A stretch of 24,895 nucleotides of DNA, from the IMG/VR virus record IMGVR_UViG_3300024231_001040, positions 1 to 24,895 of that record, one strand, 5' to 3'. A program made the position numbers and the translations under genes. Source of the stretch: a virus. Of the stretch, positions 1-23,548 are shown in pieces. The notes beneath the pieces were generated by a model. That model saw nothing but the letters and a program-made list of their open reading frames with translations, was not told the DNA's origin and searched no databases. Numbering within the stretch: position 1 is the stretch's first letter; each line of letters opens with the position of its first letter.

Positions 1-78
1 ATCACACATAGGACATGCCGCCTGACAGCGTTGTGTAACTTCCAGATGTACTTGTTTTATACCATGATAGTTATACAT
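1..78 (-). CDS. Radical SAM enzyme, N-terminal fragment (cut by window edge)
   Basis: Only the first 26 codons lie in the window. The reading frame from ATG at 78 contains C12, C16 and C19 in the order CQAACPMC, which is the CxxxCxxC motif that binds the [4Fe-4S] cluster of radical SAM enzymes. The preceding segment (IKQVHLEVTQR) is the first beta strand and matches the starts of the enzymes at 6465 (RTLEIELSSNCQASCPLC) and 16346 (RQMHIELTSKCNASCPGC). This predicts the same subfamily, with the core at the extreme N terminus and an auxiliary-cluster domain at the C terminus; that part is outside the window. The start overlaps the stop of the 71-301 gene by 8 nt, as elsewhere in this genome. 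No strong ribosome site is seen. The family call is firm; the subfamily is inferred. Confidence 0.85.
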   Translation of the reverse strand, partial: MYNYHGIKQVHLEVTQRCQAACPMCD

Positions 79-301
79 TGTCAATAATTAACTTTACGTT
101 CTGTCCTGGACCAGTTTTACTGGGCAATTCGCCATATTTTTGTACGTACCATTCAATAACAGCACGATACCAGTTCTGGCTATCGTGATGTGCTTTTTTA
201 TTAAACTGATAGATATTATTGTTGGTAGCACTCATTGTACTTAATGCTCTAGCACTTTCAGTTTGCAATTGTCGTAACGATAACTTATTTAAATCTGTCA
301 T
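71..301 (-). CDS. Small hypothetical protein (76 aa)
   Basis: The function is not recognised. ATG at 301 lies 7 nt after the stop of the upstream gene; a TTG eight codons earlier would overlap that gene and is less likely. The protein is polar, with a Gln/Ser/Ala-rich, probably helical N-terminal half (LSLRQLQTESARALSTM), an aromatic segment (NWYRAVIEWYVQKYGELP) and a Lys-rich tail. It has no cysteine, signal peptide or membrane segment. It lies directly upstream of, and overlaps by 8 nt, the radical SAM gene that leaves the window. It could be a small partner or a substrate of that enzyme, or simply a small phage protein; nothing in the sequence decides between these. Confidence 0.6.
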   Translation of the reverse strand: MTDLNKLSLRQLQTESARALSTMSATNNNIYQFNKKAHHDSQNWYRAVIEWYVQKYGELPSKTGPGQNVKLIIDNV

Positions 302-308
302 ATGACAG

Positions 309-905
309 TTATTCTGTAATCTCAAAATTTGCTGACTTGTGATATGGATTAGTTGATGTTGAATGATTCATTGGATAATCAAACAATGTATTGCTCGTTA
401 GCGTCCAACTATCTTTAAGGTAGCACATGGCAGTACCACTTTCAACTGTAATATCTGTTACTGTTGAACCATCTTTAACTGTTTTTGTAAACCCTTCAAT
501 ATCAAATGTCTTTTCGTTATGTCCAATACATGCTGCACAATTATTATCACTACTAGTTGCAAATGTTTGCAATGCAGTTGTGTCGCCACCAGTGAGTTCA
601 GCAGTCATATCAAAATTAACAACTGTATTGCCAAATATATGAATAATTTGTCCATTCATATCACCGTCAATTGGATCAATTCGCCAATCACTACGGTCCA
701 TAACTTCTGCTTCTGCACTATATACATAGCACCCAACTCCAGCATTAGCCGCTGATGCCGTGTATGTCCCACCAGGAAAATGGTCTTTCATTGCCGCCGG
801 CATGTTTTGAAATAATACTAAAGTTCTGTCAGCAATAGCTTCTTTAAGTTTAGCTAAACTGTCGGCATCTAAAGCGCCATTCCATCTATATGTAAAGATA
901 TGCAT
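309..905 (-). CDS. Hypothetical phage protein (198 aa)
   Basis: The function is not recognised. The ATG at 905 has a strong ribosome site (AAGGAG, 913-918, 7 nt spacing) and a late promoter octamer at 930-937. The first 50 residues (starting MHIFTYRWNG, then a helical DADSLAKLKEAIADRTLVLF) look like a compact alpha/beta domain. The rest is Thr/Asp/Gly-rich and probably beta-structured. Four cysteines are present (C59, C123, C126, C161), C123 and C126 forming a CAAC pair that could bind metal or form a disulfide. There is no signal peptide or membrane helix. Late promoter control and composition are compatible with a minor virion protein, but this is inference. It is followed by the 76-aa gene and a radical SAM gene. 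Confidence 0.7.
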   Translation of the reverse strand: MHIFTYRWNGALDADSLAKLKEAIADRTLVLFQNMPAAMKDHFPGGTYTASAANAGVGCYVYSAEAEVMDRSDWRIDPIDGDMNGQIIHIFGNTVVNFDMTAELTGGDTTALQTFATSSDNNCAACIGHNEKTFDIEGFTKTVKDGSTVTDITVESGTAMCYLKDSWTLTSNTLFDYPMNHSTSTNPYHKSANFEITE

Positions 906-929
906 ATCTTTTCTCCTTTTATATCATAG

Positions 930-937
930 TATTTATT
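930..937 (-). promoter_or_regulatory. T4-type late promoter (AATAAATA)
   Basis: A one-base variant of the T4 late promoter octamer TATAAATA on the minus strand. It overlaps the stop codon of the methyltransferase gene and would start RNA near 924, giving a leader of about 19 nt with the AAGGAG site of the 905 gene. The octamer fits the consensus and is correctly placed. Confidence 0.6.
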
Positions 938-1850
938 TAATACCTAATAGCATGTAACGTTCGTATTCTGGGGTATCTAAACTGCCACTGTAAATAAGTT
1001 GGCTAAACTGATACTTTTCCTCAGCTTCTGCTGTATTATTAACACAATTGATATGTTGTGTATTTTCAAAATAATTATTGGTTTGTAAACACACTAGTTT
1101 TCCACTGGGTATCTGATCAAACCAAGTATCGTCCATGTGTTCACAACTTGTATTAATTATTAAATCTGGACGAATGTCACACACAACATCATTTTCTGCC
1201 ACCAGCTGTTCAATATACCAAGTATTATTGCCACGATTCTTCCACTGTAAATTACATACATCAGTTTCAAATGCTTTAAATCTCCAGGATTGATCGTAAC
1301 ACTGTGGATAGTTAAACTTGTCACTGATCCATCTTGCGTCTGGATCTATATCTAAACTGTATAATTTTTTAATATCAGTAAATCTTTCAAACAAGAAGTA
1401 TGCAATTGTAGCATACCATCCCCCATATAATACAACATTTTGTATACTATCTGCTTCAACATATTCGTCAATTATGTTCATTAACCATAATTTACTCATT
1501 ACTTGACCACGACTAAAGTGATCATTTAGATTAGCAGCTTTGGCTGAACTGATTGACCATGCACTTACTTGTCTTAAAAATTGGTCATCTATACAATGAC
1601 TTATATATCTCAACACTTTGCGATGTGTTGAGTGATCATATTCAATATGCTTACTAAAAATTAGTTGTAAAAATTCATCAGTAAGCTCACTATATCCACG
1701 ATGTATTTCTCTTTTGACTAGATCACGTATTTTGTAAATGTTCCCATGCACAATAGCTTTTTTGATATCTTGGAAGGAATCTAATTGTGGATGCTGAATG
1801 TAAGTAAAATATTCCTCAAACCCATTGACCCAGTGAATATTATCATTCAT
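933..1850 (-). CDS. Class I SAM-dependent methyltransferase, GGWY type (305 aa)
   Basis: A methyltransferase with an N-terminal helical domain (about residues 1-130) and a Rossmann-like SAM-binding domain. The glycine loop is VVLYGGWYATIAYFLF (139-154), followed by the acidic end of strand 2 in LYSLDIDPDA (163-172), which would hold the SAM ribose. The motif-IV region is PDLIINTSCEHMDDTWF (228-244). The C-terminal part has the pattern LQTNNY...HINCV and ends near YERYMLLGIK. I know this layout from marine phage methyltransferases, but its substrate is unknown to me. ATG 1850 is preferred over ATG 1892 because GAGGAAG lies 6 nt before it and the overlap with the upstream glycosyltransferase is then only 8 nt. 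Translational coupling with that gene suggests a joint pathway, perhaps methylation of a sugar or small molecule. Confidence 0.8.
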   Translation of the reverse strand: MNDNIHWVNGFEEYFTYIQHPQLDSFQDIKKAIVHGNIYKIRDLVKREIHRGYSELTDEFLQLIFSKHIEYDHSTHRKVLRYISHCIDDQFLRQVSAWSISSAKAANLNDHFSRGQVMSKLWLMNIIDEYVEADSIQNVVLYGGWYATIAYFLFERFTDIKKLYSLDIDPDARWISDKFNYPQCYDQSWRFKAFETDVCNLQWKNRGNNTWYIEQLVAENDVVCDIRPDLIINTSCEHMDDTWFDQIPSGKLVCLQTNNYFENTQHINCVNNTAEAEEKYQFSQLIYSGSLDTPEYERYMLLGIK

Positions 1851-2553
1851 TAGTGGCTTCCTCAAATTGTTCACGCAACCAAGCATAGTCATTAATCAAA
1901 TGCAATGCTTTTTTATTGTTCTTATAATGATTACCAAAATCTCTGCCTTGTTTAGCACCCATTATACTGTATTCTCCATATGGAGATTTTGCACCACGTG
2001 AGCACCATACTTCCAGCCGATATTTGTTATCAATATTATCACCATTGGGAATAATACTGGAAGCCAGTTTAGTTGCTTCTCTAAACGCACCTTTCCAGGT
2101 ATCAAATGGGGTTGTGTTAAATGCTGTGATGTTGCTGATCTGAAATTTAGGAACAAACGGACATCCAATAGTAGTAGTCATGTCTACTTTAAATTCTCTA
2201 GCGTTTAGTAATTCACGTTTGGGGAATAACTTTACAGCGCCGTAGCCGTATATCAACTTATTTACTGGATTTAAACTACGCCAAGTGTATACACACTTGT
2301 TTTCTGGAATGCCTGGGTATGCCATAATGCTAGGACTAGGAGTAAACTTAAAACTAAATTGCTCATCAATGATAGCATCTGCATCAACCACATAGAAATA
2401 ACCAGTTGAACTCTGTTTTGCACATTCCTTGTGTGCATTAAGTATACCATCTATACCATGCACACGCTTGGCATGTGGTGCAAACAGTTGTAGAAGCTGA
2501 AAGTTTTCGTCAGCAGAAATTTCGTCGTAACTTAGAAAGAATACATCTAACAT
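1843..2553 (-). CDS. GT-A-like glycosyltransferase (236 aa)
   Basis: A putative glycosyltransferase of GT-A fold. The N terminus LDVFFLSYDE forms the first strand of the nucleotide-binding half. The sequence YFYVVDADAII (52-62) places D57 and D59 as the DxD pair that binds metal and the sugar nucleotide. NPVNKLIYGYGAVKLFP and FREATKLASS fit the acceptor half. It is a clear paralogue of the protein at 20478: both share FxSYDE, the DADxI motif, the N-x-VNxLxYGxGxxK(L/C)(F/W)P block and a FREGxK/FREATK helix. It is shorter by about 90 residues at the C terminus. A late promoter on the minus strand lies at 2630-2637, and AAAGGT precedes the ATG. The donor sugar and acceptor are unknown. Confidence 0.72.
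   Translation of the reverse strand: MLDVFFLSYDEISADENFQLLQLFAPHAKRVHGIDGILNAHKECAKQSSTGYFYVVDADAIIDEQFSFKFTPSPSIMAYPGIPENKCVYTWRSLNPVNKLIYGYGAVKLFPKRELLNAREFKVDMTTTIGCPFVPKFQISNITAFNTTPFDTWKGAFREATKLASSIIPNGDNIDNKYRLEVWCSRGAKSPYGEYSIMGAKQGRDFGNHYKNNKKALHLINDYAWLREQFEEATNE
1857..1863 (-). promoter_or_regulatory. Ribosome binding site deciding the methyltransferase start
   Basis: GAGGAAG on the minus strand, 6 nt before ATG 1850 and inside the end of the upstream gene. It favours this start over the in-frame ATG at 1892. Confidence 0.6.
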
Positions 2554-2629
2554 ATTTTAAACCTTTATTTAACTAATATTATATATGAATTCGGCTAGAT
2601 AGTCAAGCACTTAAATCATTAACTACGTA

Positions 2630-2637
2630 TATTTATA
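2630..2637 (-). promoter_or_regulatory. T4-type late promoter (TATAAATA), minus strand
   Basis: A perfect late octamer read on the minus strand. Expected transcription start is near 2624, giving a leader of about 71 nt for the glycosyltransferase gene at 2553. It overlaps the plus-strand octamer at 2634-2641 by four bases. Confidence 0.6.
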
Positions 2638-2641
2638 AATA
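2634..2641 (+). promoter_or_regulatory. T4-type late promoter (TATAAATA), plus strand
   Basis: A perfect late octamer 5 bp before the ATG at 2647. In T4 the octamer spans about -13 to -6, so RNA would start on the A of the ATG. No ribosome site is present. Confidence 0.72.
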
Positions 2642-2646
2642 ACTGT

Positions 2647-3963
2647 ATGAGTAAAATATTTGCAAGTTTTCCCGACTCCAGTAGCTACAATAAAGAATAC
2701 CCTGATCCAACTGTATCCAATATGTGGATTAGTAAAGTTATAGACTATACTGAAAGTTTTTTTCATGATCAGTTCAATGACATGGCACAATTTACAGTAA
2801 CACCGTACCATAAAATTCCTGAAAAAACACCATACAACATCTATATCAAATGCCATACATCATATCCTGCATATTTAGAAATTATTGATGGGGTACTTAG
2901 TAAGAATAACTACTATAATATGGTACTACAAGATAGTAAACAGGGACTAGTAACATGGTGGTTTGATCATGGATGGGAAAAATTTTTAGTAACACATCAT
3001 GAACAATATGATATTCTAGATTGGTATGGCAGATTAGTACACACTCTTAATTGTGATACCCATCCACACAAAGTAAATTTACTAACTGGGGCAGAATTTA
3101 ATAAAGATCTTTTTGAAAACATAAACCAAACATTTGGTATTAAGATACACTCAATTCAACCGATGGAACATTTCCTACACAAATTAATACTGTATGATAA
3201 CAACTTTAAAAATTTTACATCATTGCGTATTAAAACAATTGAAAGTCGTACAGTAACGCATTCGCCTGGGTTAACATATAATCGAATGCCACGGCCGTTA
3301 CGTGCATTATTATTGGCATACCTAGATGAAAAAAACCTAATAAACAGCACCAATTACAGTTGGGGCGGTAGTAAACTAATATCTAATCTGGCGCCATCAG
3401 CTCACAGTGATTGGTCTACAGAGCAAATAATTGACAATCAGCTAAACACACTAGTACAACAATATGGTGCAGTGGGAGAACAATACAAAGACCAAGTTAA
3501 ACACTGGTATAACAAGCCTGTGGTAAACTTACCTGCTGAAGATGAAAACTTTGATTATACACAAAATCCAGCAGGAAATATAAATTATATACACGCTCAG
3601 TGGAGCAATTTTCAAATAGTAACCGAAACATGCTACAACCATTTAGCATTTTTAAGTGAAAAATCATTTAAACCTTTAGTGATGTTGATGCCGTTTATTA
3701 TATTAGGACCAGCTGGATGTATACAAGCACTACGCAATCGCGGGTATCGTACATATGATAGGTGGATAGATCATAGCTATGACCAAGAATTACAATTTGA
3801 TAGAAGATGGCAATTATTTACGAAAGAAGTCGATCGATTGTATAATTTAACTCCTGATCAGTGGGCTGATATTAAACTACAAATGTTGCCAGATATGATG
3901 TATAATTTATATCATTTCCGTAGTAGATCATTTAACAACCATTCAGATGTATTTTTCAGCTAG
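2647..3963 (+). CDS. Putative glycosyltransferase with SEK motif (438 aa)
   Basis: The N-terminal half is not recognised. The C-terminal segment contains FLSEKSFKPLVMLMPFIILG (336-354 region) and then ALRNRGYRTYDRWIDHSYDQ. The S/T-E-K motif followed by a helix, a PF(I/V) strand and a small-residue turn resembles the donor-nucleotide region of GT10 fucosyltransferase-like and related GT-B enzymes. The paralogue at 9710 shares the same block (ITEKAFKNLV...PFVML...YVDHSYD), so the motif is conserved within this genome. The length is usual for a two-domain transferase. The ATG follows TATAAATA by exactly 5 bp and has no ribosome site, so the message may be leaderless; the next in-frame Met is residue 26. 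Glycosyltransferase is the best guess, but not proven. Confidence 0.5.
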   Translation: MSKIFASFPDSSSYNKEYPDPTVSNMWISKVIDYTESFFHDQFNDMAQFTVTPYHKIPEKTPYNIYIKCHTSYPAYLEIIDGVLSKNNYYNMVLQDSKQGLVTWWFDHGWEKFLVTHHEQYDILDWYGRLVHTLNCDTHPHKVNLLTGAEFNKDLFENINQTFGIKIHSIQPMEHFLHKLILYDNNFKNFTSLRIKTIESRTVTHSPGLTYNRMPRPLRALLLAYLDEKNLINSTNYSWGGSKLISNLAPSAHSDWSTEQIIDNQLNTLVQQYGAVGEQYKDQVKHWYNKPVVNLPAEDENFDYTQNPAGNINYIHAQWSNFQIVTETCYNHLAFLSEKSFKPLVMLMPFIILGPAGCIQALRNRGYRTYDRWIDHSYDQELQFDRRWQLFTKEVDRLYNLTPDQWADIKLQMLPDMMYNLYHFRSRSFNNHSDVFFS

Positions 3964-3971
3964 AATAAATA
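3964..3971 (+). promoter_or_regulatory. T4-type late promoter (AATAAATA)
   Basis: A one-base variant of the late octamer beginning immediately after the stop codon of the 2647 gene. Expected start is near 3977, giving a leader of about 22 nt for the B12-type radical SAM gene, with AAGAGA as a weak ribosome site. Confidence 0.55.
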
Positions 3972-3998
3972 CTACTATAAAACAAGAGATATTATAAT

Positions 3999-5873
3999 AT
4001 GAAAAACGTTTACCTTAGCCAAATGAGTCTAGAATTACCTGGATCAAAGTACTACTATTTTCCATACAGTGTAGGAGTAGTGTGGTGCTATGCCAATGCT
4101 GACCCAGTAATCCATAACAACTATCAGCTTAAAGGATTATATTTTGTCAAAGAAAATATTGATACTATAGTTGACAGTATGGAAGATCCAGCAGTGTTAG
4201 GTCTGAGCAGTTACATATGGAATACCAACTACAACGAGGAATTTGCACGTAAGGTCAAAACACGTTGGCCCGACTGTAAAATTATCGTGGGCGGTGCTAA
4301 TGCACCTGACAGTAATATTATGTATTTTGAAGACAAGCCGTACATTGATTATTTAATTCATCAAGAAGGAGAAATTAGCTTCCTTGGGCTACTTAAAAGT
4401 TTTATAGGCGAACAAGATGAAGAGAAAGTGCCTGGTATTAGCATAAACCAAAATGGTAAGCGTATTAGTACTGGACCTAGTGTTAGAGTTAGTGACTTAA
4501 CAAATGTGCCCAGTCCATACCTAACTGGATTATTTGATGACATTGTTGAAAAATATAACGGACGTAGTGATATGACTCTTAATGGCATTATTGAAACTAA
4601 TCGCGGGTGTCCATTTATGTGTACGTTCTGTGATTGGGGAGGTACTACATTTAGTAAAGTTAAGAAATTCGATATAACAAGAATTGAAGCAGAAGTCAAG
4701 TGGTTTGCTGAAAATAAGATTGAATACATCAACAATACTGATGCTAACTTTGGTATATTTAAAGAACGTGACATGGCTATTACTGATATGCTTATTGCTA
4801 CAAAACAAAAGTATGGCTTCCCAGAAATATTTGATACAAACTGGAATAAAAATAACAATCAAGTAACAGTAGAGATGGCAAGTAAACTTCTTAATGCAGG
4901 CATGATGCGTAGATTTACTGCTAGTTTACAAAGTATGAACCCTGATGTGCTTAAAGCTATTAAACGCACAAATCTAAATGGAGATCAACTGGACAATATT
5001 GTAGATGATGCACGTAAAATTGGCATTAGTGTTAGTACTGAGATGATTGTTGGATTGCCAGAAGAAACCTACGAAAGTTGGAAGTCCGGGATATGTCAAT
5101 TACTTAAAGACGGGTTTATTGTTGAAAGTTTTCCACTAGCACTATTACAAAATAGTGAAATGAATGTCCCTGCTTACAAAAAACAATATGGACTTATAAC
5201 TAAATCAGTAAAGAGTTATTTTAGTAACTATGTAGACGAATGGCAGGATATGGTAGTAGGCACACGTACAATGTCAGAAGAGATGATGAGTAGAGTTTGG
5301 CTGTGGACCTGGCTTACAAATAAACTTGAAGCAAATGGATTCACACATATTGTAAGTAGGTATTTAGAAAAACATCATAATATTCCACAACAGGATTTTT
5401 ATGAAGAGATGTTAGAATCATTTTTAACTGATAAGAATAGTGTATACTACCCACACTTACAAAAGTGGAGTAAGTATGCACATGATTTAGAATTTCAATA
5501 TTTTATAGCTGGGTATGTATATGGTGAAGTATTGGTTGATATTGGACAACATCGACGAGCTAAGTTTTTTAAAGAAGTATATGAAGTAGCTAATAGGTTA
5601 ATTGGCACATTCGATCCACAATTGAGTCAAGTACTTGACTTACAAGAAAAAATACAGCGTCAACCGCATCAAGATAAACATACTATAACATGTAATAGTA
5701 ATTTATATGAATACATTGTTAACAATGACCAATTGCTAGTTAACAATACTACACAATATACCATAACTAATAATGCAATTGAAGACAGATTTAATAATGA
5801 TTGGTTTGCATTTATGAACTTTGCTAGAAAAAATCGTAGTTGGTTGAATAATATAGAAGCATCTACAATATGA
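3999..5873 (+). CDS. B12-binding-domain radical SAM enzyme (624 aa)
   Basis: A class B-like radical SAM protein. Residues 1 to about 140 form a cobalamin-binding-type Rossmann domain (AVLGLSSYIWN, then CKIIVGGANAP, then YLIHQEGE). They lack the DxHxxG motif that supplies the lower cobalt ligand, which is common in this branch. The core starts at IIETNRGCPFMCTFCDWGG (198-215) with C204, C208 and C211 for the [4Fe-4S] cluster. MIVGLPEET is a later core strand. About 230 further residues at the C terminus are mostly helical and unassigned. Such enzymes methylate or rearrange unactivated carbons, but the substrate here is unknown. A late promoter (3964-3971) starts directly after the upstream stop. 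The stop overlaps the next gene, a methyltransferase, by 4 nt (ATGA), so the two are likely translated together. Confidence 0.88.
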   Translation: MKNVYLSQMSLELPGSKYYYFPYSVGVVWCYANADPVIHNNYQLKGLYFVKENIDTIVDSMEDPAVLGLSSYIWNTNYNEEFARKVKTRWPDCKIIVGGANAPDSNIMYFEDKPYIDYLIHQEGEISFLGLLKSFIGEQDEEKVPGISINQNGKRISTGPSVRVSDLTNVPSPYLTGLFDDIVEKYNGRSDMTLNGIIETNRGCPFMCTFCDWGGTTFSKVKKFDITRIEAEVKWFAENKIEYINNTDANFGIFKERDMAITDMLIATKQKYGFPEIFDTNWNKNNNQVTVEMASKLLNAGMMRRFTASLQSMNPDVLKAIKRTNLNGDQLDNIVDDARKIGISVSTEMIVGLPEETYESWKSGICQLLKDGFIVESFPLALLQNSEMNVPAYKKQYGLITKSVKSYFSNYVDEWQDMVVGTRTMSEEMMSRVWLWTWLTNKLEANGFTHIVSRYLEKHHNIPQQDFYEEMLESFLTDKNSVYYPHLQKWSKYAHDLEFQYFIAGYVYGEVLVDIGQHRRAKFFKEVYEVANRLIGTFDPQLSQVLDLQEKIQRQPHQDKHTITCNSNLYEYIVNNDQLLVNNTTQYTITNNAIEDRFNNDWFAFMNFARKNRSWLNNIEASTI

Positions 5874-6463
5874 ATGAGAGAATAAATTTTTTAAACAAAA
5901 CTATTAAACCATTGTGTAAGGGCGCAAGGGTATGGGATTTTTGCTGTGGTACCGGAATGAATGGACTGTATGCATTAGAACACGGTGCTGAGTTTGTGTA
6001 CTTTTCAGACGTAAGACCACAATCGTTTCAAACATATACTAAAAACTTAAACTTAAATGACAAACATTTTAATTGGCAGTTTCTGGATAGTGATGACATT
6101 GAAACAAAAAACTTAAACCACCTCAGTATAGACATTATAATATATCATGGCCATTTATATCATGCTAGAAATCATTATCAAATTCTAAAGTCACTTAGTG
6201 AATCTACTGCAAAGTATATTTGCTTTGAAAGCAAGGGAAAAGATAGCGATTGCGCAGATATTACCTGGGCCGTTGAACCACAAGATATTGATACCAATGC
6301 ACTGGAACACGGGCAACAAAATTTAAATTCAATGGTAGGCGCACCAACATCAACTTGGTGCTATAAAATGTTTGAACACTTTGGATGGGAAATTGCCGAT
6401 AGTACTATGGAACATCCGCAAGACAAAGATTACGCTAAATGGCGTTATTGGCTTAAACGATAA
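5870..6463 (+). CDS. Class I SAM-dependent methyltransferase (197 aa)
   Basis: A compact Rossmann methyltransferase. Motif I is RVWDFCCGTGMNGLYALEHG (20-39), with strand 2 ending in VYFSDVRP (43-50), where D47 would bind the ribose. The motif-IV strand is IDIIIYHGHLYHARNHYQIL, an arrangement seen in small-molecule methyltransferases rather than DNA methylases, since no NPPY or DPPY is present. Late residues ADITWAVEP and SMVGAPTSTWCYKMFEHFGW may shape the acceptor site. The gene starts inside the stop codon of the B12-type radical SAM gene and ends 1 nt before the next radical SAM gene, so the three form one unit. The substrate is unknown; the product of one of the flanking radical SAM enzymes is a reasonable guess. 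Confidence 0.82.
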   Translation: MNERINFLNKTIKPLCKGARVWDFCCGTGMNGLYALEHGAEFVYFSDVRPQSFQTYTKNLNLNDKHFNWQFLDSDDIETKNLNHLSIDIIIYHGHLYHARNHYQILKSLSESTAKYICFESKGKDSDCADITWAVEPQDIDTNALEHGQQNLNSMVGAPTSTWCYKMFEHFGWEIADSTMEHPQDKDYAKWRYWLKR

Positions 6464-6464
6464 T

Positions 6465-7496
6465 ATGTATACTGCACAACAAATACGCACATTAGAAATA
6501 GAACTAAGCAGTAATTGCCAAGCTAGTTGTCCACTATGCTTGCGCAACTTTCACGGCGCAACATACAACAAAGGATACACTGTAAAAAGTTTAACAACAT
6601 CTGAAATAAAGCAAATACTACCTGCTGACTTTGTTACACAATTAGATACTATAATATTTGAAGGTAACTTGGGAGATGCGATTGTGGTTAGTGACTTAGC
6701 TGATACTGTTAAATATTTACGTAGTTGTAATCCGCATTGTGATATAGAATTACACACCAATGCTAGTGCTGGAAGTAAACAAACATGGATAACACTTGCT
6801 GAACAGCGTGTGCGTGTGTTCTTTGCTCTTGACGGGCTAGAAGATACACATCACTTGTATCGCCGCGGTACTAATTGGCAAAAAATTATAGACAACGCTG
6901 GCATTTTTATGAGTGCAGGTGGAGATGCAATATGGAAATTCATTCCATTAACAACTAACCAACACCAACAAGAAGATTGTAGAAGGCTTAGTATGGAATT
7001 TGGTTTTTCTTCTTTTGCAGTTATGAGCGACCAGCGACAGAACTGTCATGTGTTTGATGCTCAGGGAGAATATCAATATAGTATTGGTAATCCAAAAGGT
7101 CCTAAAGACTTTAAACAGGCAGTGCGTGATTATCAAATAAGTGGAGAGCAACAGGACCTTAGGCCTGTGCCCAAGCGTATTGAATGTTATGCAGACAAAC
7201 GAAAATATCTATACCTTGATGCATTGGGCGATGTATACCCTTGTTGCTACTTGGGTAGTCAGCCACGCACTTTTGATAGAAAGGGTGGGGTACAAAAATA
7301 TGTACATAAACGTGTTGATGATATAATGTACAATAATAATCTATTTGAAAATTCTATTAATGATGCAATCGATTGGTTTAACAAAATACCTCCCAAATGG
7401 AGTGCGCCAATGTCGGATAGGCTTGCTGCATGTGATAATGTGTGTGGGAAAAATACCAATTCTATAGAGATTAGTACAAATAATTATGACGAGTAA
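6465..7496 (+). CDS. Radical SAM enzyme with C-terminal SPASM/twitch domain (343 aa)
   Basis: The core begins almost at residue 1: RTLEIELSSNCQASCPLC holds C18, C22 and C25 in the CxxxCxxC motif for the SAM-binding cluster. ALDGLEDTHHLYRR (121-134) is a core block shared with the enzyme at 16346 (VDGLEDTNHMYRR). The C-terminal domain has the auxiliary-cluster signature C241-x13-G255-x4-C260, followed by C261 and a CDNVC pair (C323, C327), as in SPASM/twitch proteins. Those proteins commonly modify peptides, and some modify sugars or other small molecules. ATG 6465 is chosen because it follows the methyltransferase stop by 1 nt and puts the core at the N terminus, as in its paralogues. The 3' end overlaps the convergent gene at 7484 by 13 bp. 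Confidence 0.87.
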   Translation: MYTAQQIRTLEIELSSNCQASCPLCLRNFHGATYNKGYTVKSLTTSEIKQILPADFVTQLDTIIFEGNLGDAIVVSDLADTVKYLRSCNPHCDIELHTNASAGSKQTWITLAEQRVRVFFALDGLEDTHHLYRRGTNWQKIIDNAGIFMSAGGDAIWKFIPLTTNQHQQEDCRRLSMEFGFSSFAVMSDQRQNCHVFDAQGEYQYSIGNPKGPKDFKQAVRDYQISGEQQDLRPVPKRIECYADKRKYLYLDALGDVYPCCYLGSQPRTFDRKGGVQKYVHKRVDDIMYNNNLFENSINDAIDWFNKIPPKWSAPMSDRLAACDNVCGKNTNSIEISTNNYDE

Positions 7497-8425
7497 AGTC
7501 TATAGCCATCATCTTGTAGTTTAACAACACCAAACTCAAACCTTATACTGTGCATACTAATACCGGACTGTTGCATAATCCATTCATAAACATTATCTTC
7601 ACTATAACCGATTATCATTCTACCAGTAAAATTTTTAAAATCGTTTGGATCAATATCATAATCATGTGAGTTATTGTCTACGGCCCAGTTAGTAACATGT
7701 TGTTGGATACTTTGTCTGTATTGATTTAATTCTGATTCTGGCATAGTAGTGCCCGGCACAATAATACTAAATTGACTTTTGATGTCTGTTTTGGGAACAT
7801 AACGAAGTGGATTTTTCATACTGTTAACGTCATCATCAAATGCAAGTGCTTGTAAATCTTTGCCTAGTGTGTTGTATCCGATTATCATACAGTTCTGATA
7901 CTTAAATCCTGCATCATAACATTGTGCATCGGATTCAGTTAATGGTGTACTATAATTAGCTTCTACTTTATATGCACTACAACTACTAATATAAGGAGGA
8001 CTTTCAAAATTTTCAGCTTGATTCATAATTTTTGCTTCTAATTCATGTATAGCAAAGTTTAAATCACAAAGCATACTGGCTACATTTTCATTAGGCTGAA
8101 GCTGTGTACTTTCGGCAAATTTATCATGCAGTATGTTTAATTCAGACTGATTGTATGGAACATTCTGCCAACAGTCTGGAATATCAATATCAGGGCAATC
8201 AGTAACAATTTGTCGACATATATTAAATATATTATTCTGTAATGTTTGTTCACTAGCCATAGGAGTAGGACACTCAAAGTCAAACTCCAATATTTGCCTA
8301 TCATAGTCTTGAAAAATACGTTGCCACACATTTAAAAATTTATTACTTGCGCTGTTATTGCTTAGTTCATAATTTAAAATACGATAGTCCGTATCTCCAG
8401 TAAGTGTTATTGTTATAATTGCCAT
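7484..8425 (-). CDS. Hypothetical protein (313 aa)
   Basis: The function is not recognised. The protein is acidic and soluble, with no signal peptide or membrane helix. The N terminus MAIITITLTGDTDYRI is a likely beta hairpin. A helical stretch follows (about residues 105-140, NENVASMLCDLNFAIHELEA). The C-terminal half has GRMIIGYSEDNVYEWI. Cysteines are scattered (residues 52, 69, 77, 84 and others) with no metal-site spacing I can name. It is the only minus-strand gene between two plus-strand blocks, with its own late promoter (AATAAATA, 8431-8438) placed 5 bp from the ATG and no ribosome site. Its 3' end overlaps the convergent radical SAM gene by 13 bp. An upstream ATG at 8430 runs into a stop after five codons and is not used. 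Confidence 0.65.
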   Translation of the reverse strand: MAIITITLTGDTDYRILNYELSNNSASNKFLNVWQRIFQDYDRQILEFDFECPTPMASEQTLQNNIFNICRQIVTDCPDIDIPDCWQNVPYNQSELNILHDKFAESTQLQPNENVASMLCDLNFAIHELEAKIMNQAENFESPPYISSCSAYKVEANYSTPLTESDAQCYDAGFKYQNCMIIGYNTLGKDLQALAFDDDVNSMKNPLRYVPKTDIKSQFSIIVPGTTMPESELNQYRQSIQQHVTNWAVDNNSHDYDIDPNDFKNFTGRMIIGYSEDNVYEWIMQQSGISMHSIRFEFGVVKLQDDGYRLYSS

Positions 8426-8430
8426 GCCAT

Positions 8431-8438
8431 TATTTATT
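8431..8438 (-). promoter_or_regulatory. T4-type late promoter (AATAAATA), minus strand
   Basis: A late octamer variant 5 bp before the ATG at 8425 of the unknown 313-aa gene, predicting RNA that starts at the ATG. It shares base 8438 with the plus-strand octamer of the dehydrogenase gene. Confidence 0.58.
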
Positions 8439-8445
8439 ATAAATA
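8438..8445 (+). promoter_or_regulatory. T4-type late promoter (TATAAATA), plus strand
   Basis: A perfect late octamer. Expected start is near 8451, giving a leader of about 21 nt with AGGA at 8462-8465 before the nucleotide-sugar dehydrogenase ATG at 8472. Confidence 0.72.
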
Positions 8446-8471
8446 AGTATGTAGTTAATATAGGATTTAAA

Positions 8472-9710
8472 ATGAAAATAGGATTTATAGGTTGCGGTAA
8501 ACTAGGTATGCCGTGTGCAGAAGCTATTGCACAAAAAGGTCACGATGTTAGTGGATACGATGTTGTCAAGCGTACAAGTAGTTACGTAACAATGTTTCCT
8601 ACAATCCAAGGCGCAGTACAAGGACGTGATATTGTCTTTGTTGCCGTGCCTACACCACATGAACAATTATATGATGGTCGTGTACCAAGTGCGCACCTAG
8701 AACCAGTAAATTTTCGTTACGATATTGTAAAAGAGGTATTGGATGAAGCAAATCGGTATATGACGCAGGATCAAATGCTGGTGCTTATTAGTACAGTATT
8801 ACCTGGCACTACTAGACGTGAGTTTATACAATCAGTAACTAACACTAGGTTTGTGTACAATCCATATCTAATTGCAATGGGGTCAGTAGCATGGGATATG
8901 GTTAATCCTGAAATGGTTATGATCGGTACAGAAGATGGTAGTGAAACTGGTGACGCAAAAGAACTAGTAGACTTCTATAAGACTATAATGGAAAACAATC
9001 CACGCTATGAAATCGGCACATGGGACGAATGCGAATGTATTAAAGTATTCTACAACACATTTATTAGTGCAAAGATTGGTTTAGTAAATATGATACAAGA
9101 TGTGGCAGAGAAGCAAGGCAATATCAACGTTGATGTTGTGACTAATGCTCTTGCTAACAGTACGATGCGTATTATGGGTCCACAGTATATGACAGCAGGC
9201 ATGGGCGATGGAGGTGCCTGCCATCCAAGAGATAATATTGCATTAAGGTATATGGCAAATGAATTGGACTTAGGGTATGACTTGTTTGATGCTATTATGA
9301 ATGCACGTGAAGTACAAGCCAAGAACATTGCTAAAAGGCTGGTAGAATTGCGTGATGAAACAGGATTACCAATTTATATTCACGGCAAAGCATACAAGCC
9401 TGGCGTGCCGTATATTGATGGTAGTTATAGTTTACTGATCGGTCACTATGTTGAAGAAATGGATGAAGCTGTCATTTATATTGATCCATTAGTTGAACCA
9501 CCAAGCACGCCAACAAGTGTTAAAGGTGTAGTATTACTTGCTCATAGTGCTAGTACAACATACAAGTACATGCAGGAAGAAGGTGACGACACTGATAAAC
9601 TTTATTGTGATATTGAGTTTGGTAGTATTGTAGTTGATCCATGGCGTAAATTTACAACTAGTGATGAAACTGTTAGAGTAATATATTACGGGAATACTCG
9701 AGGACAATAA
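8472..9710 (+). CDS. UDP-glucose/GDP-mannose dehydrogenase family protein (412 aa)
   Basis: An NAD-dependent nucleotide-sugar 6-dehydrogenase, the class that oxidises UDP-glucose, GDP-mannose or UDP-HexNAc to the uronate. The N-terminal Rossmann motif is MKIGFIGCGKLGMP with D30 ending strand 2 (GYD), which favours NAD. VFVAVPTP (56-63) and LISTVLPGTTR (105-115) are family blocks. ECIKVFYNTFISAKI supplies K191, and GMGDGGACHPRDN supplies the catalytic Cys C250 and D254. The usual Lys before that Asp (CxPKD) is Arg (R253). The C-terminal domain is about residues 290-412. ATG 8472 has AGGA (8462-8465) at 6 nt and the late promoter at 8438-8445, and it begins directly with the Rossmann strand. 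It likely supplies an acidic sugar donor for the glycosyltransferases nearby. Which sugar is used cannot be told. Confidence 0.92.
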   Translation: MKIGFIGCGKLGMPCAEAIAQKGHDVSGYDVVKRTSSYVTMFPTIQGAVQGRDIVFVAVPTPHEQLYDGRVPSAHLEPVNFRYDIVKEVLDEANRYMTQDQMLVLISTVLPGTTRREFIQSVTNTRFVYNPYLIAMGSVAWDMVNPEMVMIGTEDGSETGDAKELVDFYKTIMENNPRYEIGTWDECECIKVFYNTFISAKIGLVNMIQDVAEKQGNINVDVVTNALANSTMRIMGPQYMTAGMGDGGACHPRDNIALRYMANELDLGYDLFDAIMNAREVQAKNIAKRLVELRDETGLPIYIHGKAYKPGVPYIDGSYSLLIGHYVEEMDEAVIYIDPLVEPPSTPTSVKGVVLLAHSASTTYKYMQEEGDDTDKLYCDIEFGSIVVDPWRKFTTSDETVRVIYYGNTRGQ

Positions 9711-10786
9711 TGTTACAGGTATGGGGGTATAGTCCAGAAGGAACTAGTTTTAGTACTAATTGTAATTGTATACCAGTTATATATCGACAGTTTGCACAAG
9801 GTGCAAGTTTATTTCATAGAAAGTATGCATTCTTTATTAGTGGAGCGTTTGGTAGATTTACGGATCCAAACGCCGACTATACCAATTGGCTGGACACTAT
9901 AAATTTAGATAATCGTACACTGCAACATATCGAACAAGGTAAATGTATTGTAGTAGTAGATGATACTACTGAAGCTTTTGATGAAAATACAATTAAAACA
10001 ACACTACAAAACTTTGCTAAACGTAATAACTTAACAGCTGATAATTTTGTCTTTAGTACTAATAATTTAAATTTTCCAAAGCAATCATTTTGTGATGTAT
10101 ATTCAGCACCTTTTGTTTTGGAATATTGTCGCTATAGTATAATTGATAAGGATACTGATTACTTTGAACCTATCATGAGTAATCGTGGAGATTGGCAATA
10201 TCCGTTTATTAGTATTGGCGGAGAACCACGACATCATCGTCGACAACTACACAATCTTATTCGTAATCAGTACCCTAAAACTGGGATTTGTACTATGAAT
10301 AGTGGATTTAGAGCTAACGATTACAGCAACATAGCGTTTACACCTGAAGTATCTCCATATGAACTACAACACACTGGCCCATATGTATGGCATGATATTA
10401 ATCCCAAACACTTTATACACATACCCTGTGCTGCAGTAATGGAAACTTATATTGATTATAATAATTTTAGTATTACTGAAAAGGCATTTAAAAATTTAGT
10501 ATACCCCCAGCCATTTGTAATGCTGGCGGCCAGCGGCAGTATACAGTTATTACGTGATATTGGATTCAATGTGTATGATGAGTATGTAGACCACAGCTAT
10601 GATAATATCGTTGATAACAATGATAGGATTAACGCTGTGTTTGAAAGTTTTTGTAAGTTAATCCAAGATAATCATTTTCCAAACGAAAAAAATATCGCAA
10701 CCCATAATCGTGAAGTCAGTCGCAATTTAACAATTGCCAATGACTTTATTAGTTATGTTGAGTCTAAATTGGAATCTACGGGTTAA
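9710..10786 (+). CDS. Putative glycosyltransferase with TEK motif (358 aa)
   Basis: Paralogue of the 2647 protein in the C-terminal part: NFSITEKAFKNLVYPQPFVM (252-271) followed by IQLLRDIGFNVYDEYVDHSYD. An upstream block FISIGGEPRHHRRQLHNLI (166-184) supplies Arg and His residues, as seen before the donor site in related transferase-like proteins. The N-terminal half (VVVDDTTEAF, then DNFVFSTNNLN) has a Rossmann-like alternation. The S/T-E-K helix followed by a PF strand recalls the nucleotide-sugar site of GT10-type transferases. The gene shares one base with the stop of the nucleotide-sugar dehydrogenase (TAATG), so it is coupled to it and probably uses its product or acts in the same pathway. 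The 3' end overlaps the convergent radical SAM gene by 11 bp. Confidence 0.52.
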   Translation: MLQVWGYSPEGTSFSTNCNCIPVIYRQFAQGASLFHRKYAFFISGAFGRFTDPNADYTNWLDTINLDNRTLQHIEQGKCIVVVDDTTEAFDENTIKTTLQNFAKRNNLTADNFVFSTNNLNFPKQSFCDVYSAPFVLEYCRYSIIDKDTDYFEPIMSNRGDWQYPFISIGGEPRHHRRQLHNLIRNQYPKTGICTMNSGFRANDYSNIAFTPEVSPYELQHTGPYVWHDINPKHFIHIPCAAVMETYIDYNNFSITEKAFKNLVYPQPFVMLAASGSIQLLRDIGFNVYDEYVDHSYDNIVDNNDRINAVFESFCKLIQDNHFPNEKNIATHNREVSRNLTIANDFISYVESKLESTG

Positions 10787-12083
10787 CATTATTTTGCCAG
10801 ATTTTATCGAAAAAGTTTTCTCCAAATCCCTCTGGCTGACCTGGTGCATGTTTCTTTTCTAGTTCTTCCATTACTGTCTTATAGTAAGGAAACTGTTCAA
10901 AATATGCTGGTGTTCTCATTGATATATTTTTGTGATACTGAAAAAACCTAGAGTTAAAAGGCTTTGTGCCAACACGCTGTTTCATATTATCCGTGTGTAG
11001 ATATATACTATTCAATCTGTCAGGTTCGTTTCCACGTCCAATATATTGGTCCAGTTTTGCATATATACGATCCCAGGGAACAAAATCATGACTCAAATAT
11101 GCTGGGTCAAGAACGTTATCATAAACACAGTTACTTGTTATTCCCCATCCATGTCCAACACGATCGTCATTAAATTTAGTGCTAAAACTATTAAAGAAAT
11201 ATTCCAGTGTTTCATCAAAGTGTGGTAAACTAAAATAGTTATGTGTACATGTCAGTGCAATTTTAGCATGATGCTGTAGTTCCATCATATTATGATGGAA
11301 TCGATTCCAATCCAATCCATAGCGCACAAGTTCAGCACGTGGACCAATATTTTCAATACTAACACCAATTGTCCAGTGTGCAAACTCATTGGTGTTCTTA
11401 ATAGTATCAACCATACGATCAAACAGCGGACCTTTTGTATTGAGGTTTGTAGTAAACATTAAGTTAACTTTTTCATCAAATGTTTTAAAAATAGGTGTTA
11501 GATTGTCGATCAATGTGTATACTTCCGGCATAAGTGTAGGCTCACCGCCTAGGAAATTAATGCTTAACCGTCTAGTTTTGTCTATTTGTTTGATTCGCTC
11601 TACTAATAATTCCATCATGCGTCGAGTCCATTCAATTGTGTACTCGTCTTTTGATTTTACACTTTGTCCTACTTCTTTTTTCCATGTAGTGCTACTCCAT
11701 GGTCCGCAATATACACATGCTAAATCACACTGATCACCAATATCAATTTCAATATACTGAGTATAATCAGTATCCATTAACACATCTTTACTGTTGTCAA
11801 TAAAGTCATCTGTCCAGGTATTCCAACTATGCCGTATTGCATTATCGCCATTACGAACACACAACTTACAAGTGTGAGTAGGTATTTGATTTTTGAGCAA
11901 CATTGTTTTCTTATTTTCTACATTAAGATCATAATTTTCAAAAACATTCACTCCCAAATCGTCCATCTCTTGAAATGTAATTTTATGACCAATACTTTTA
12001 CAGCAATGACGTATTTCTTGGCGTCTAAAATCTATATTTGTATCTGTCCATAGCTTACTACAAACGTTTTGTTTAATCCTCAT
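10776..12083 (-). CDS. Radical SAM enzyme with N-terminal twitch domain (435 aa)
   Basis: Domain order: N-terminal auxiliary-cluster region with C8, C27, C28 and the CKLC pair (C72, C75), then the radical SAM core IDIGDQCDLACVYCGPW with C119, C123 and C126 as CxxxCxxC. NFLGGEP (176-182) is the usual SAM-methionine contact. Unlike its paralogues it lacks the Gly of the Cx9-15Gx4C signature (the interval reads TNIDFRRQEIRHCC), so it is the most diverged of the five N-twitch proteins here. ATG 12083 is chosen over TTG 12098 because GAGGA (12092-12096) stands 8 nt before it. It overlaps the upstream radical SAM gene by 11 nt. Such enzymes are known in marine phages, but their substrates are unknown to me. 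Confidence 0.87.
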   Translation of the reverse strand: MRIKQNVCSKLWTDTNIDFRRQEIRHCCKSIGHKITFQEMDDLGVNVFENYDLNVENKKTMLLKNQIPTHTCKLCVRNGDNAIRHSWNTWTDDFIDNSKDVLMDTDYTQYIEIDIGDQCDLACVYCGPWSSTTWKKEVGQSVKSKDEYTIEWTRRMMELLVERIKQIDKTRRLSINFLGGEPTLMPEVYTLIDNLTPIFKTFDEKVNLMFTTNLNTKGPLFDRMVDTIKNTNEFAHWTIGVSIENIGPRAELVRYGLDWNRFHHNMMELQHHAKIALTCTHNYFSLPHFDETLEYFFNSFSTKFNDDRVGHGWGITSNCVYDNVLDPAYLSHDFVPWDRIYAKLDQYIGRGNEPDRLNSIYLHTDNMKQRVGTKPFNSRFFQYHKNISMRTPAYFEQFPYYKTVMEELEKKHAPGQPEGFGENFFDKIWQNNVNP

Positions 12084-13257
12084 GCCAATAGTCCTCAAGT
12101 TCTGGTATTACATCTAGTATACTTATATTTCGCATTTTGTCACGCATTTTTGTTATTCTTTTAAATTCCTGCCAGTGTGCATCTACCCTGGGTCTCTTTA
12201 GTTGTTCAACCAATGGAGCGAGATTATTGCTACCGGTATACACATACCCATGGTTATATGTTTGTTCAAACTCAGTAATTAAATGTTGTTTAATAGGATC
12301 TGGCAACATTTCAATTGAATAAAAACTTTGATTGACTGGATTTAACCAAATTGGAAATTTAAAATCCAACTGCTCTTTGTAGTATTTACTAGTACGTATT
12401 ATATCAAATATACTGTATGCACTATACGTATATGCATTAGCAATAAAATCTGTTGGCAAGAGTCTACTTTTTATCAAATGTAAGTTTTTAATAAACTGAT
12501 CCCAATTGGCTGGGTATCTGGTATATTCAAATGTTTTATCACTGCCATCACCACTAAGTAATATGTTCCTACGTTTGAATGTGCTTAACATATCAAACAT
12601 TTCCTCTTCGTATATGCTACCATTGGTAGCAAAATTTATCTCAATATTCTTACTAATACCTGAATCTACCAACTTACGCATAAACGGAGTCATTTCCTTA
12701 ACCAATAATGGTTCACCACCGTATACATTAAGTAGTTTAGCATGATGACATTTTTCAATTATACTATCCCAAATTTCTGGGGTTCGCCACCATTTGGTTT
12801 TAAATGTAACACCTCTGCCTGGCCATAATATTTCATCTTCATTGAATAACATACTACTACTAGCACTATCACATACCACACACATTTGGTTGCACACATT
12901 TCCTAACTTCATATCAATATCCAGGATACTATGTGTGGATGCATCGTTTTTCGTAATGTACTGTACCGCATAATCATGGAATCGGTTATTACTATTTTGT
13001 CGCTGACTAGTAATACCAACTTCTTCGTTACGATAACATGTAGAACAGTTAACACTTGGTTTGTTGTCCAGCATATTTTGTCTTAAAGTTTGCCAGTGTT
13101 CGGCATGTGTGATTTCATCCAAAGTATAATTTGACAAAGTATGAGTAACTTCAGTAATATTACTGTTAAAATCACAACATGGCACAACATGCCCATTTGC
13201 TCTAATTTCAACACCAGTAAATGCCTTGATACAAAAATGCTTGTTTATTTCAGTCAT
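12073..13257 (-). CDS. Radical SAM enzyme with N-terminal twitch domain (394 aa)
   Basis: The N-terminal domain shows the auxiliary-cluster signature C9-x12-G22-x4-C27 (FCIKAF, then ANGHVVPCC), completed by the pair CSTC (C71, C74) with the following YRNEE. The radical SAM core begins DIDMKLGNVCNQMCVVC with C122, C126 and C129, followed by SASSS. VYGGEP (178-183) is the SAM-binding GGEP block. The C-terminal part ends in helices (FKRITKMRDKMRNI). ATG 13257 with GGAG (13265-13268) at 7 nt is preferred to an upstream TTG. It overlaps the stop of the isochorismatase-like gene by 4 nt (ATGA). It is second in a three-gene unit started by the late promoter at 13769-13776. Confidence 0.88.
   Translation of the reverse strand: MTEINKHFCIKAFTGVEIRANGHVVPCCDFNSNITEVTHTLSNYTLDEITHAEHWQTLRQNMLDNKPSVNCSTCYRNEEVGITSQRQNSNNRFHDYAVQYITKNDASTHSILDIDMKLGNVCNQMCVVCDSASSSMLFNEDEILWPGRGVTFKTKWWRTPEIWDSIIEKCHHAKLLNVYGGEPLLVKEMTPFMRKLVDSGISKNIEINFATNGSIYEEEMFDMLSTFKRRNILLSGDGSDKTFEYTRYPANWDQFIKNLHLIKSRLLPTDFIANAYTYSAYSIFDIIRTSKYYKEQLDFKFPIWLNPVNQSFYSIEMLPDPIKQHLITEFEQTYNHGYVYTGSNNLAPLVEQLKRPRVDAHWQEFKRITKMRDKMRNISILDVIPELEDYWHED
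12092..12096 (-). promoter_or_regulatory. Ribosome binding site deciding the radical SAM start at 12083
   Basis: GAGGA on the minus strand, 8 nt before ATG 12083. The in-frame TTG at 12098 overlaps this site and is therefore unlikely to be the start. Confidence 0.6.
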
Positions 13258-13763
13258 ATATAATCTCCAAAGCAAATTTTATATCCGCTAGTAATACTAT
13301 ACTTATATGTCTCATGTATAATATCAGCTTCATCCATATTATGACTCATTAAATTTAAACAACAATCGACCACAACTTCACATTTATAGCCAGCAGCTGT
13401 CATATTATGTATACCAAGTTCTCGATGCTCAATACAGCCAGGGATACTAAAGCCAGTATAGTATAGATGATTTACATTATTATTTTTTAAGTATACATTG
13501 ACTTCATCAGTATTCCAGCTTGTGATAATATTATCACGCCTACTAACGGCTGATTCAATTAGATGATGTGGGTGTTTCCATGGAAAATTTATTGCTTGGT
13601 CCGGAGGTAACTCAGTTTGATATGCAGCTAAAACAATTGGACCCTGCCAACGCTGAAGAACTTTGGATATACGTAATACAGTACGTTCCATTGGTGTTTG
13701 TAGAAAGCTAAGACCAGGATAATATTTGTCCCATGTGTCGATAATCATTATTGCTGATGTCAT
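13254..13763 (-). CDS. Isochorismatase-like cysteine hydrolase family protein (169 aa)
   Basis: The N terminus AIMIIDTWDKYYP carries D9, the Asp of the family's catalytic triad. TGFSIPGCIEHRELGIHNMT (103-122) has C110 in the position of the nucleophile, and AAGYKCEVVVDCC (123-135) matches the closing strand of the fold. The length is near the family minimum. The triad Lys, normally about 30-40 residues before the Cys, is not obvious: the region reads SRRDNIITSWNTDE with Arg instead, so activity may be altered or lost. Family members hydrolyse isochorismate, nicotinamide, N-carbamoyl compounds and similar amides; the substrate here is unknown. The gene opens a three-gene unit with two radical SAM genes. 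TATAAATA lies exactly 5 bp before the ATG, with no ribosome site. Confidence 0.75.
   Translation of the reverse strand: MTSAIMIIDTWDKYYPGLSFLQTPMERTVLRISKVLQRWQGPIVLAAYQTELPPDQAINFPWKHPHHLIESAVSRRDNIITSWNTDEVNVYLKNNNVNHLYYTGFSIPGCIEHRELGIHNMTAAGYKCEVVVDCCLNLMSHNMDEADIIHETYKYSITSGYKICFGDYI
13265..13268 (-). promoter_or_regulatory. Ribosome binding site deciding the radical SAM start at 13257
   Basis: GGAG on the minus strand, 7 nt before ATG 13257, inside the end of the isochorismatase-like gene. It rules against the in-frame TTG at 13275. Confidence 0.6.
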
Positions 13764-13768
13764 AATTA

Positions 13769-13776
13769 TATTTATA
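13769..13776 (-). promoter_or_regulatory. T4-type late promoter (TATAAATA)
   Basis: A perfect late octamer on the minus strand, 5 bp before the ATG at 13763 of the isochorismatase-like gene. RNA would start on the ATG. It lies in the 30-bp gap behind the radical SAM gene that ends at 13794. Confidence 0.72.
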
Positions 13777-13793
13777 CATTATTAAAATAGCAG

Positions 13794-23147: not shown

Positions 23148-23495
23148 TTACCAGTCCATTACCTTTTTTATATTTCTTGCTTTTGATAGTTTGTTTGTTT
23201 CTATTAAAAACTCATTCATTGCTTCATTATATTTTTCAATAATCATTAACTTAAATTCATGCAAGTCATCAATTTGAATTGGTGTATTACGACTATCTTG
23301 TATTACTGCATGTTGAAACTCATTATCCAATAAACTTTGGACAAAACTAATTAACAATTGATCAGCACGCCATGTGCCTTTTTTGTACATAAAAGTCTGT
23401 TGCGTTTCCATTCTGATTTTGAGGTTTTTCTTTTGATTTTCTATTGTCATTCGATAATTAGAAAATTCCAATGCTTTTTCTAAGCGGTCATCCAT
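23148..23495 (-). CDS. Conserved phage hypothetical protein (115 aa)
   Basis: The start DDRLEKALEFSNYRMTIENQ and the end EFLIETNKLSKARNIKKVMD frame an all-helical protein with a beta insert around FMYKKGTWRADQLLISFVQS. This layout (helix, short hairpin, ISFV helix, D-x-N-x-P-I-x-I turn, long helix) resembles small proteins I recall from T4-like cyanophages, whose role is not established. It has no cysteine or signal peptide. The ATG has a strong GGAGG (23506-23510) about 10 nt before it and a CATAAATA promoter at 23541-23548, so it heads the nine-gene unit down to 13794. The role may be structural or regulatory; the function is unknown. Confidence 0.7.
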   Translation of the reverse strand: MDDRLEKALEFSNYRMTIENQKKNLKIRMETQQTFMYKKGTWRADQLLISFVQSLLDNEFQHAVIQDSRNTPIQIDDLHEFKLMIIEKYNEAMNEFLIETNKLSKARNIKKVMDW

Positions 23496-23540: not shown

Positions 23541-23548
23541 TATTTATG
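23541..23548 (-). promoter_or_regulatory. T4-type late promoter variant (CATAAATA)
   Basis: A one-base variant of the late octamer in the 70-bp gap behind the structural gene. Expected start is near 23535, giving a leader of about 40 nt that contains GGAGG before ATG 23495. It would drive the long operon of glycosyltransferases and radical SAM enzymes. Confidence 0.5.

Follow-up and report, generated by a model that had tools for sequence, protein, structure and literature searches.

The late genes of phage T4 are transcribed with the help of gp55, gp33 and gp45 from promoters marked by the octamer TATAAATA, which occupies positions -13 to -6 (PMC2988020), and a late promoter of the same type, NATAAATA, is known in cyanophages (PMC2984593). 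The phages analysed here resemble both systems in the octamer itself, in the predicted geometry of the RNA start and in the placement of these promoters before structural genes. They differ in what follows the octamer: in T4 and in the tested cyanophages it is a leader, whereas in the relatives studied here about one in four octamers lying close to a start codon leaves none. Leaderless mRNAs are in turn well described in the Alphaproteobacteria, with 375 in Caulobacter crescentus (9.6% of its CDSs; PMC4117421) and 171 in Sinorhizobium meliloti (cited in PMC4117421). They too carry the start codon at the 5' end and no Shine-Dalgarno (SD) sequence, but they are products of host genes and host promoters, whereas the genes considered here are phage late genes behind a T4-type late promoter. 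The pelagimyophages, relatives of HTVC008M, belong to the same group as some of our phages; late-promoter prediction based on cyanomyophages failed in them, and leaderless genes go unmentioned in the paper that reports this (PMC7029224). In PMC9004378 the word 'leaderless' occurs solely within the title of a reference. Full-text searches, which mostly do not reach subscription journals, turned up no account of late genes without leaders among T4-like phages; an earlier report is possible. The T4-type late promoter and the leaderless mRNA are therefore each known, and we have found no report of their combination. Here we describe a form of the T4-type late promoter that is predicted to yield leaderless mRNAs and, judged from genome sequences, is common in part of the T4 superfamily.

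Results

Three genes with an octamer five bases before the ATG

The window, that is, the whole stretch of DNA analysed, is the 24,895-base IMG/VR record IMGVR_UViG_3300024231_001040, a genome fragment of an ocean virus of bacteria with a G+C content of 35%. It encodes a radical SAM/SPASM cluster, a methyltransferase, many proteins that fall into no family and a UDP-glucose dehydrogenase with matches in the T4-like marine phages Bellamy and HTVC008M. Between 3999 and 19491 the radical SAM or radical SAM-like proteins number about seven; several have SPASM domains, and some resemble mutual paralogues. No gp55, gp33 or gp45 was seen in this fragment of a genome; in HTVC008M, which shares the promoter layout described below, the annotation includes a late sigma factor, a putative late promoter factor and a DNA polymerase processivity factor.

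The exact T4 octamer TATAAATA is present at 2634..2641 (+), followed by the 5-nt spacer actgt (2642..2646, +) and by the ATG of an ORF of 438 aa (2647..3963, +) that belongs to no Pfam or PHROG family. Since the numbering of T4 late promoters puts the first base of the octamer at -13 (PMC2988020), the sixth base past the octamer is +1; the spacer would thus cover -5 to -1, with T at -1, and an octamer lying exactly five bases before a start codon predicts an mRNA that begins on its own ATG, with no leader. The sequence-only reading from which we started had described this arrangement at 2647, adding that no ribosome site precedes the gene and that no alternative Met occurs before residue 26, and direct inspection bears it out on all these points: there is no upstream SD sequence, and the next ATG, GTG or TTG downstream is codon 26. 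Nor is there an alternative start upstream, because the in-frame codons back to the TAA stop (CTA CGT ATA TTT ATA AAT AAC TGT) include no ATG, GTG or TTG.

The same spacing had been noted at two further genes, and it is indeed found at both, although one of the two octamers is not the exact one. The ORF of 313 aa at 7484..8425 (-) is preceded by AATAAATA (8431..8438, -), which differs from the T4 consensus in a single letter: its first base is A, a known variant of T4 late promoters (PMC2988020). The ORF of 169 aa at 13254..13763 (-), with a weak isochorismatase match, is preceded by an exact TATAAATA (13769..13776, -). Both octamers have a gap of 5, by which we mean the number of bases between octamer and start codon, and both genes are predicted to be leaderless; at 2647, 8425 and 13763 alike the start codon is ATG and no SD sequence was read upstream.

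Five other late-type promoters of the window leave a leader. These are AATAAATA at 930..937 (-), with a gap of 24 containing AGGAG before the ATG at 905; TATAAATA at 2630..2637 (-), with a long leader of 76 nt before the gene that starts at 2553; AATAAATA at 3964..3971 (+), with a gap of 27 to the ATG at 3999; TATAAATA at 8438..8445 (+), with a gap of 26 containing AGGA; and CATAAATA at 23541..23548 (-), with a gap of 45 containing GGAGG before the ATG at 23495. The fourth serves the UDP-glucose/GDP-mannose dehydrogenase gene (8472..9710, +; Pfam PF00984 and PF03721), a leadered control. The earlier statement that such promoters give leaders with good ribosome sites holds at 905, 8472 and 23495, the sites at 3999 and 2553 being weaker.

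Two of the three predicted leaderless promoters, 2634 and 8431, overlap the divergent octamer of a leadered gene (2630-2637 (-) and 8438-8445 (+), respectively). In the first pair the two octamers have TATTTATAAATA in common, and the divergent one, conserved in two near relatives of the window (G001, IMGVR_UViG_3300024228_000644, and G002, IMGVR_UViG_3300025098_000260), lies upstream of an ORF of 236 aa (1843..2553, -). Beside it is a near-consensus sigma-70 type promoter, TTGACT-17-TATAAT (2578..2606, -), the top of 92 promoter-like sites in positions 1-14000 of the window and probably an early promoter; the 1843-2553 gene therefore seems to have both an early and a late promoter, with a leader. 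Across the common promoter, protein identity between the window and G002 falls from 100% at 1843-2553 to 33% at 2647-3963, a case of mosaic gene swapping in which promoter and spacing were kept.

The gap is conserved in orthologues

The DNA of G001 is 88% identical to that of the window across the first 14 kb. At the protein level, the orthologues of the genes starting at 2647, 8425 and 13763 are 79, 87 and 95% identical in G001 and 33, 45 and 54% identical in G002, and all six gaps are exactly 5. The surrounding letters vary: the spacers in the window, G001 and G002 read actgt, gatgt and ctaac at 2647, atggc, atatt and atcat at 8425, and taatt, taatt and tgttt at 13763. The first letter of the octamer differs among the three as well: both orthologues of 8425 have TATAAATA at gap 5, and the G002 orthologue of 13763 has GATAAATA, also at gap 5. 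The leadered gap before 3999 measures 27 in the window and in G001 and 17 in G002.

Among orthologous core genes of the virion, the gap is 5 in several phages while others have a leader. For gp2 the gap is 5 in HTVC008M, Mosig and Melnitz, and 16 with an SD sequence in the Rhizobium phage RHph_I1_18. For gp25 it is 5 in HTVC008M, RHph_I1_18 and four uncultured phages (G003, G010, G012 and G027), 8 in Mosig and 16 with an SD sequence in Melnitz; the N-termini of gp25 agree (MADILYSD in RHph_I1_18, MANINKLYSD in T4). The six conserved gaps in G001 and G002 suggest that the fixed 5-nt gap is maintained by selection.

Gap 5 is common in some T4-like phages

A direct search with the 2647 protein found relatives in one viral contig alone and in no phage record; the distribution was therefore followed through the promoter layout instead of this gene. 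Whole genomes were assembled from stretches of phage records, and pairs of octamer and start codon were counted within 45 nt. Gap-5 pairs made up 8/16 and 6/29 in the cultured SAR11 phages HTVC008M and Mosig, and 3/24 in the OM43 phage Melnitz. The fractions in uncultured phages were 7/23 (G003), 8/24 (G007), 3/8 (G012), 3/13 (G027) and 6/30 (G038), together with 10/40 (G010) and 4/27 (G013), two counts that are not independent because these genomes are close relatives. Altogether, 58 of the 234 pairs in these phages have a gap of 5, versus 1/138 in T4 (0/29) and the cyanophages Syn9 (0/15), Bellamy (0/29), P-SSM2 (1/35) and S-SKS1 (0/30). All eight gap-5 ATGs of HTVC008M are the RefSeq start codons. 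The T4 site TATAAATAATAATATG (131165-131180) was discarded; it falls between gene 31 and rIII, and no start codon is annotated there.

We also considered whether the trait is common to all alphaproteobacterial T4-like phages and found no support for this: Cr30, phiM12 and OLIVR5 have no gap-5 genes. There are none in DLP6 either, and each of these four phages has just 1-3 octamers near genes. RHph_I1_18 has 2 gap-5 pairs out of 14. Seven loci (L044, L045, L048, L055, L058, L060 and L064) repeat the arrangement NATAAATA + 5 nt + ATG ahead of a frame that is uncalled or very short; it lies some 840 nt downstream of a gap-5 gene that encodes about 90 aa.

The sequence-only reading had suggested counting octamer-to-ATG distances genome-wide. 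In a set of 295 octamer-start pairs from deduplicated T4-like relatives plus HTVC008M, Mosig and Melnitz, the histogram has a peak one base wide: gaps 4, 5 and 6 account for 7, 79 and 7 pairs, respectively. Another 144 pairs form a second mode at 16-32 nt, with SD 4-mers in 81% of them versus 42% of the leadered set of T4 and the cyanophages. None of 46 GTG or TTG pairs in the relatives has a gap of 5, a weak test given that the start calls are noisy.

The predicted RNA start and the base before it

In the leadered promoters of these phages, A is the commonest base at the sixth position past the octamer (63%), which is the geometry predicted for the gap-5 genes. At gap-5 genes of the deduplicated set, base -1 is T or C in 74 of 79, a bias expected with RNA starting on the A of the ATG; in ten whole genomes the share of pyrimidines at this base is 96% for gap-5 genes, versus 44% for SD genes and 59% for intergenic genes that lack an SD sequence. 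The argument from base -1 is limited to the T4-like set, since in an unselected IMG/VR sample (TTATAAATA + ATGAAA at gaps 4, 5, 6 and 9; at least 120 matches each) the bias is alike at gaps 4 to 6: among the matches listed, 78-81% have a pyrimidine at gaps 4, 5 and 6 and 68% at gap 9, with similar ORF fractions across gaps 4-6.

These data bear on the alternative that transcription of the late genes begins slightly upstream, one to three bases ahead of the ATG, which would make the mRNAs ultra-short-leadered and not strictly leaderless. The choice of start may vary by about one base and gaps of 6 to 8 occur at a few genes, as this alternative would have it, but the peak stands exactly at 5, and a pyrimidine at -1 with A at +1 fits a start on the ATG itself; we therefore regard a short leader of this kind as improbable.

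The octamer as a probable promoter

In a second alternative, the octamer is not the promoter of the gene that follows it. In bacteria, SD-less initiation on AU-rich leaders is known, and several of these phages have a gene for bS21; the AT-rich octamer could thus be an RNA element, such as an enhancer bound by bS1 or bS21, inside a longer leader made from another promoter. An enhancer, however, would have no need of spacing one base wide, the spacer letters are variable except at -1, and the identical octamer stands 16-32 nt before leadered genes that have an SD sequence. Furthermore, the upstream neighbour is divergent at about half of the gap-5 genes examined, and frequently less than 100 bp separates the two, so that read-through from upstream cannot be the sole source of RNA. 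Taken together, these observations make the RNA-element explanation very unlikely, and a late promoter that places the 5' end on the ATG is the reading we prefer.

That octamers merely fall near start codons by chance in AT-rich intergenic DNA, as the absence of enrichment of exact TATAAATA in the window (4 copies, all intergenic, versus 5.5 expected) might suggest, deserves almost no credence: NATAAATA stands at exactly gap 5 (octamer start at -13) before 3 of the 23 gene starts of the window, versus a Markov-null mean of 0.034 with three or more in 1 of 20,000 trials, the spacing is conserved in orthologues, and 79/295 pairs in the relatives share it. Permuted octamers yield nearly no gap-5 pairs. 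When 80 loci of relatives, retrieved by the radical SAM protein at 17881-19491, were pooled with the window, gap 5 was the tallest single bar both for TATAAATA (13/43) and for octamers with other first letters (17/73), while 55 permuted octamers had a mean of 0.27 at gap 5 over the relatives' loci; in whole genomes, permuted octamers gave 0-0.25 per genome at gap 5. The spacing peak excludes chance as a general explanation, even if a lone site elsewhere could still be due to it.

Discussion

Our analysis supports the original suggestion that the RNA of the 2647 gene would start on the A of its ATG, with the transcription start itself deduced from promoter geometry, and indicates that the phenomenon is larger than was stated. 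In the mechanism that we propose, the octamer at 2634 would act as a T4-type late promoter at -13 to -6, recognized by a late RNA polymerase that combines the core enzyme of the host with gp55, gp33 and the sliding clamp of the phage; RNA would likewise begin on the A of the ATG at 8425 and 13763, and host ribosomes would initiate on the 5'-terminal AUG without an SD sequence. The leaderless layout would then be a widespread alternative among T4-like phages, T4 itself and the cyanophages excepted, and would coexist with leadered late genes in the same genomes. We hold it very probable, on the strength of the comparative data, that a gp55-type RNA polymerase makes true leaderless late mRNAs in these phages, that their gap is held by selection and that the layout is widespread.

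The distribution of the trait does not follow phage taxonomy in a simple way. HTVC008M, Mosig and Melnitz are classed in the Kyanoviridae alongside the cyanophages; this family holds both kinds of phage, and thus family alone does not set the trait. In a gp17 tree these three phages are sisters of the cyanophages and the group of G003, G010, G013 and G038 is distant, which forces at least two changes of the trait; a gp23 tree requires one, with weak support, and neither tree shows a single origin. By analogy with Caulobacter, where leaderless mRNAs are common and their translation is roughly on a par with that of leadered mRNAs (PMC4117421), we infer that host translation matters for the distribution.

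Two leads point in the same direction, and neither amounts to proof. (i) In ten genomes, including HTVC008M, Mosig, G007, G010 and G013, TATAAT placed 5-6 nt before an ATG is raised over most nearby gaps; 10 of the 18 sites have at least 5/6 of a -35 box, a placement hinting at leaderless early mRNAs. (ii) A gene for bS21 is present in HTVC008M (W01:91237), Mosig (W07:9983), Melnitz (W08:35461), G003 (5563), G007 (18941) and G010 (217601), and is absent from the references searched (T4, Syn9, Bellamy, P-SSM2, KVP40 and S-SKS1); it is also absent from G012, G013, G027 and G038, all of which have gap-5 genes. It is conceivable, if somewhat doubtful, that in T4-like phages whose hosts are SAR11, OM43 or others outside the cyanobacteria a substantial part of the late programme, with core virion genes such as gp2 and gp25, is leaderless, together with some early sigma-70 promoters, that this tracks the translation machinery of the host, and that bS21 may help.

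If the proposed reading is true, one classic promoter system works in two modes side by side, leadered and leaderless, depending solely on how far it lies from the start codon, and orthologous virion genes change from one mode to the other. The leaderless layout may also explain why late-promoter prediction built on cyanophages failed in the pelagimyophages (PMC7029224), and with the gap of 5 as a simple rule, start codons could be called in these phages. The layout would provide, moreover, a testable link between the translation of the host and the promoter layout of the phage, in some of the commonest phages of the sea.
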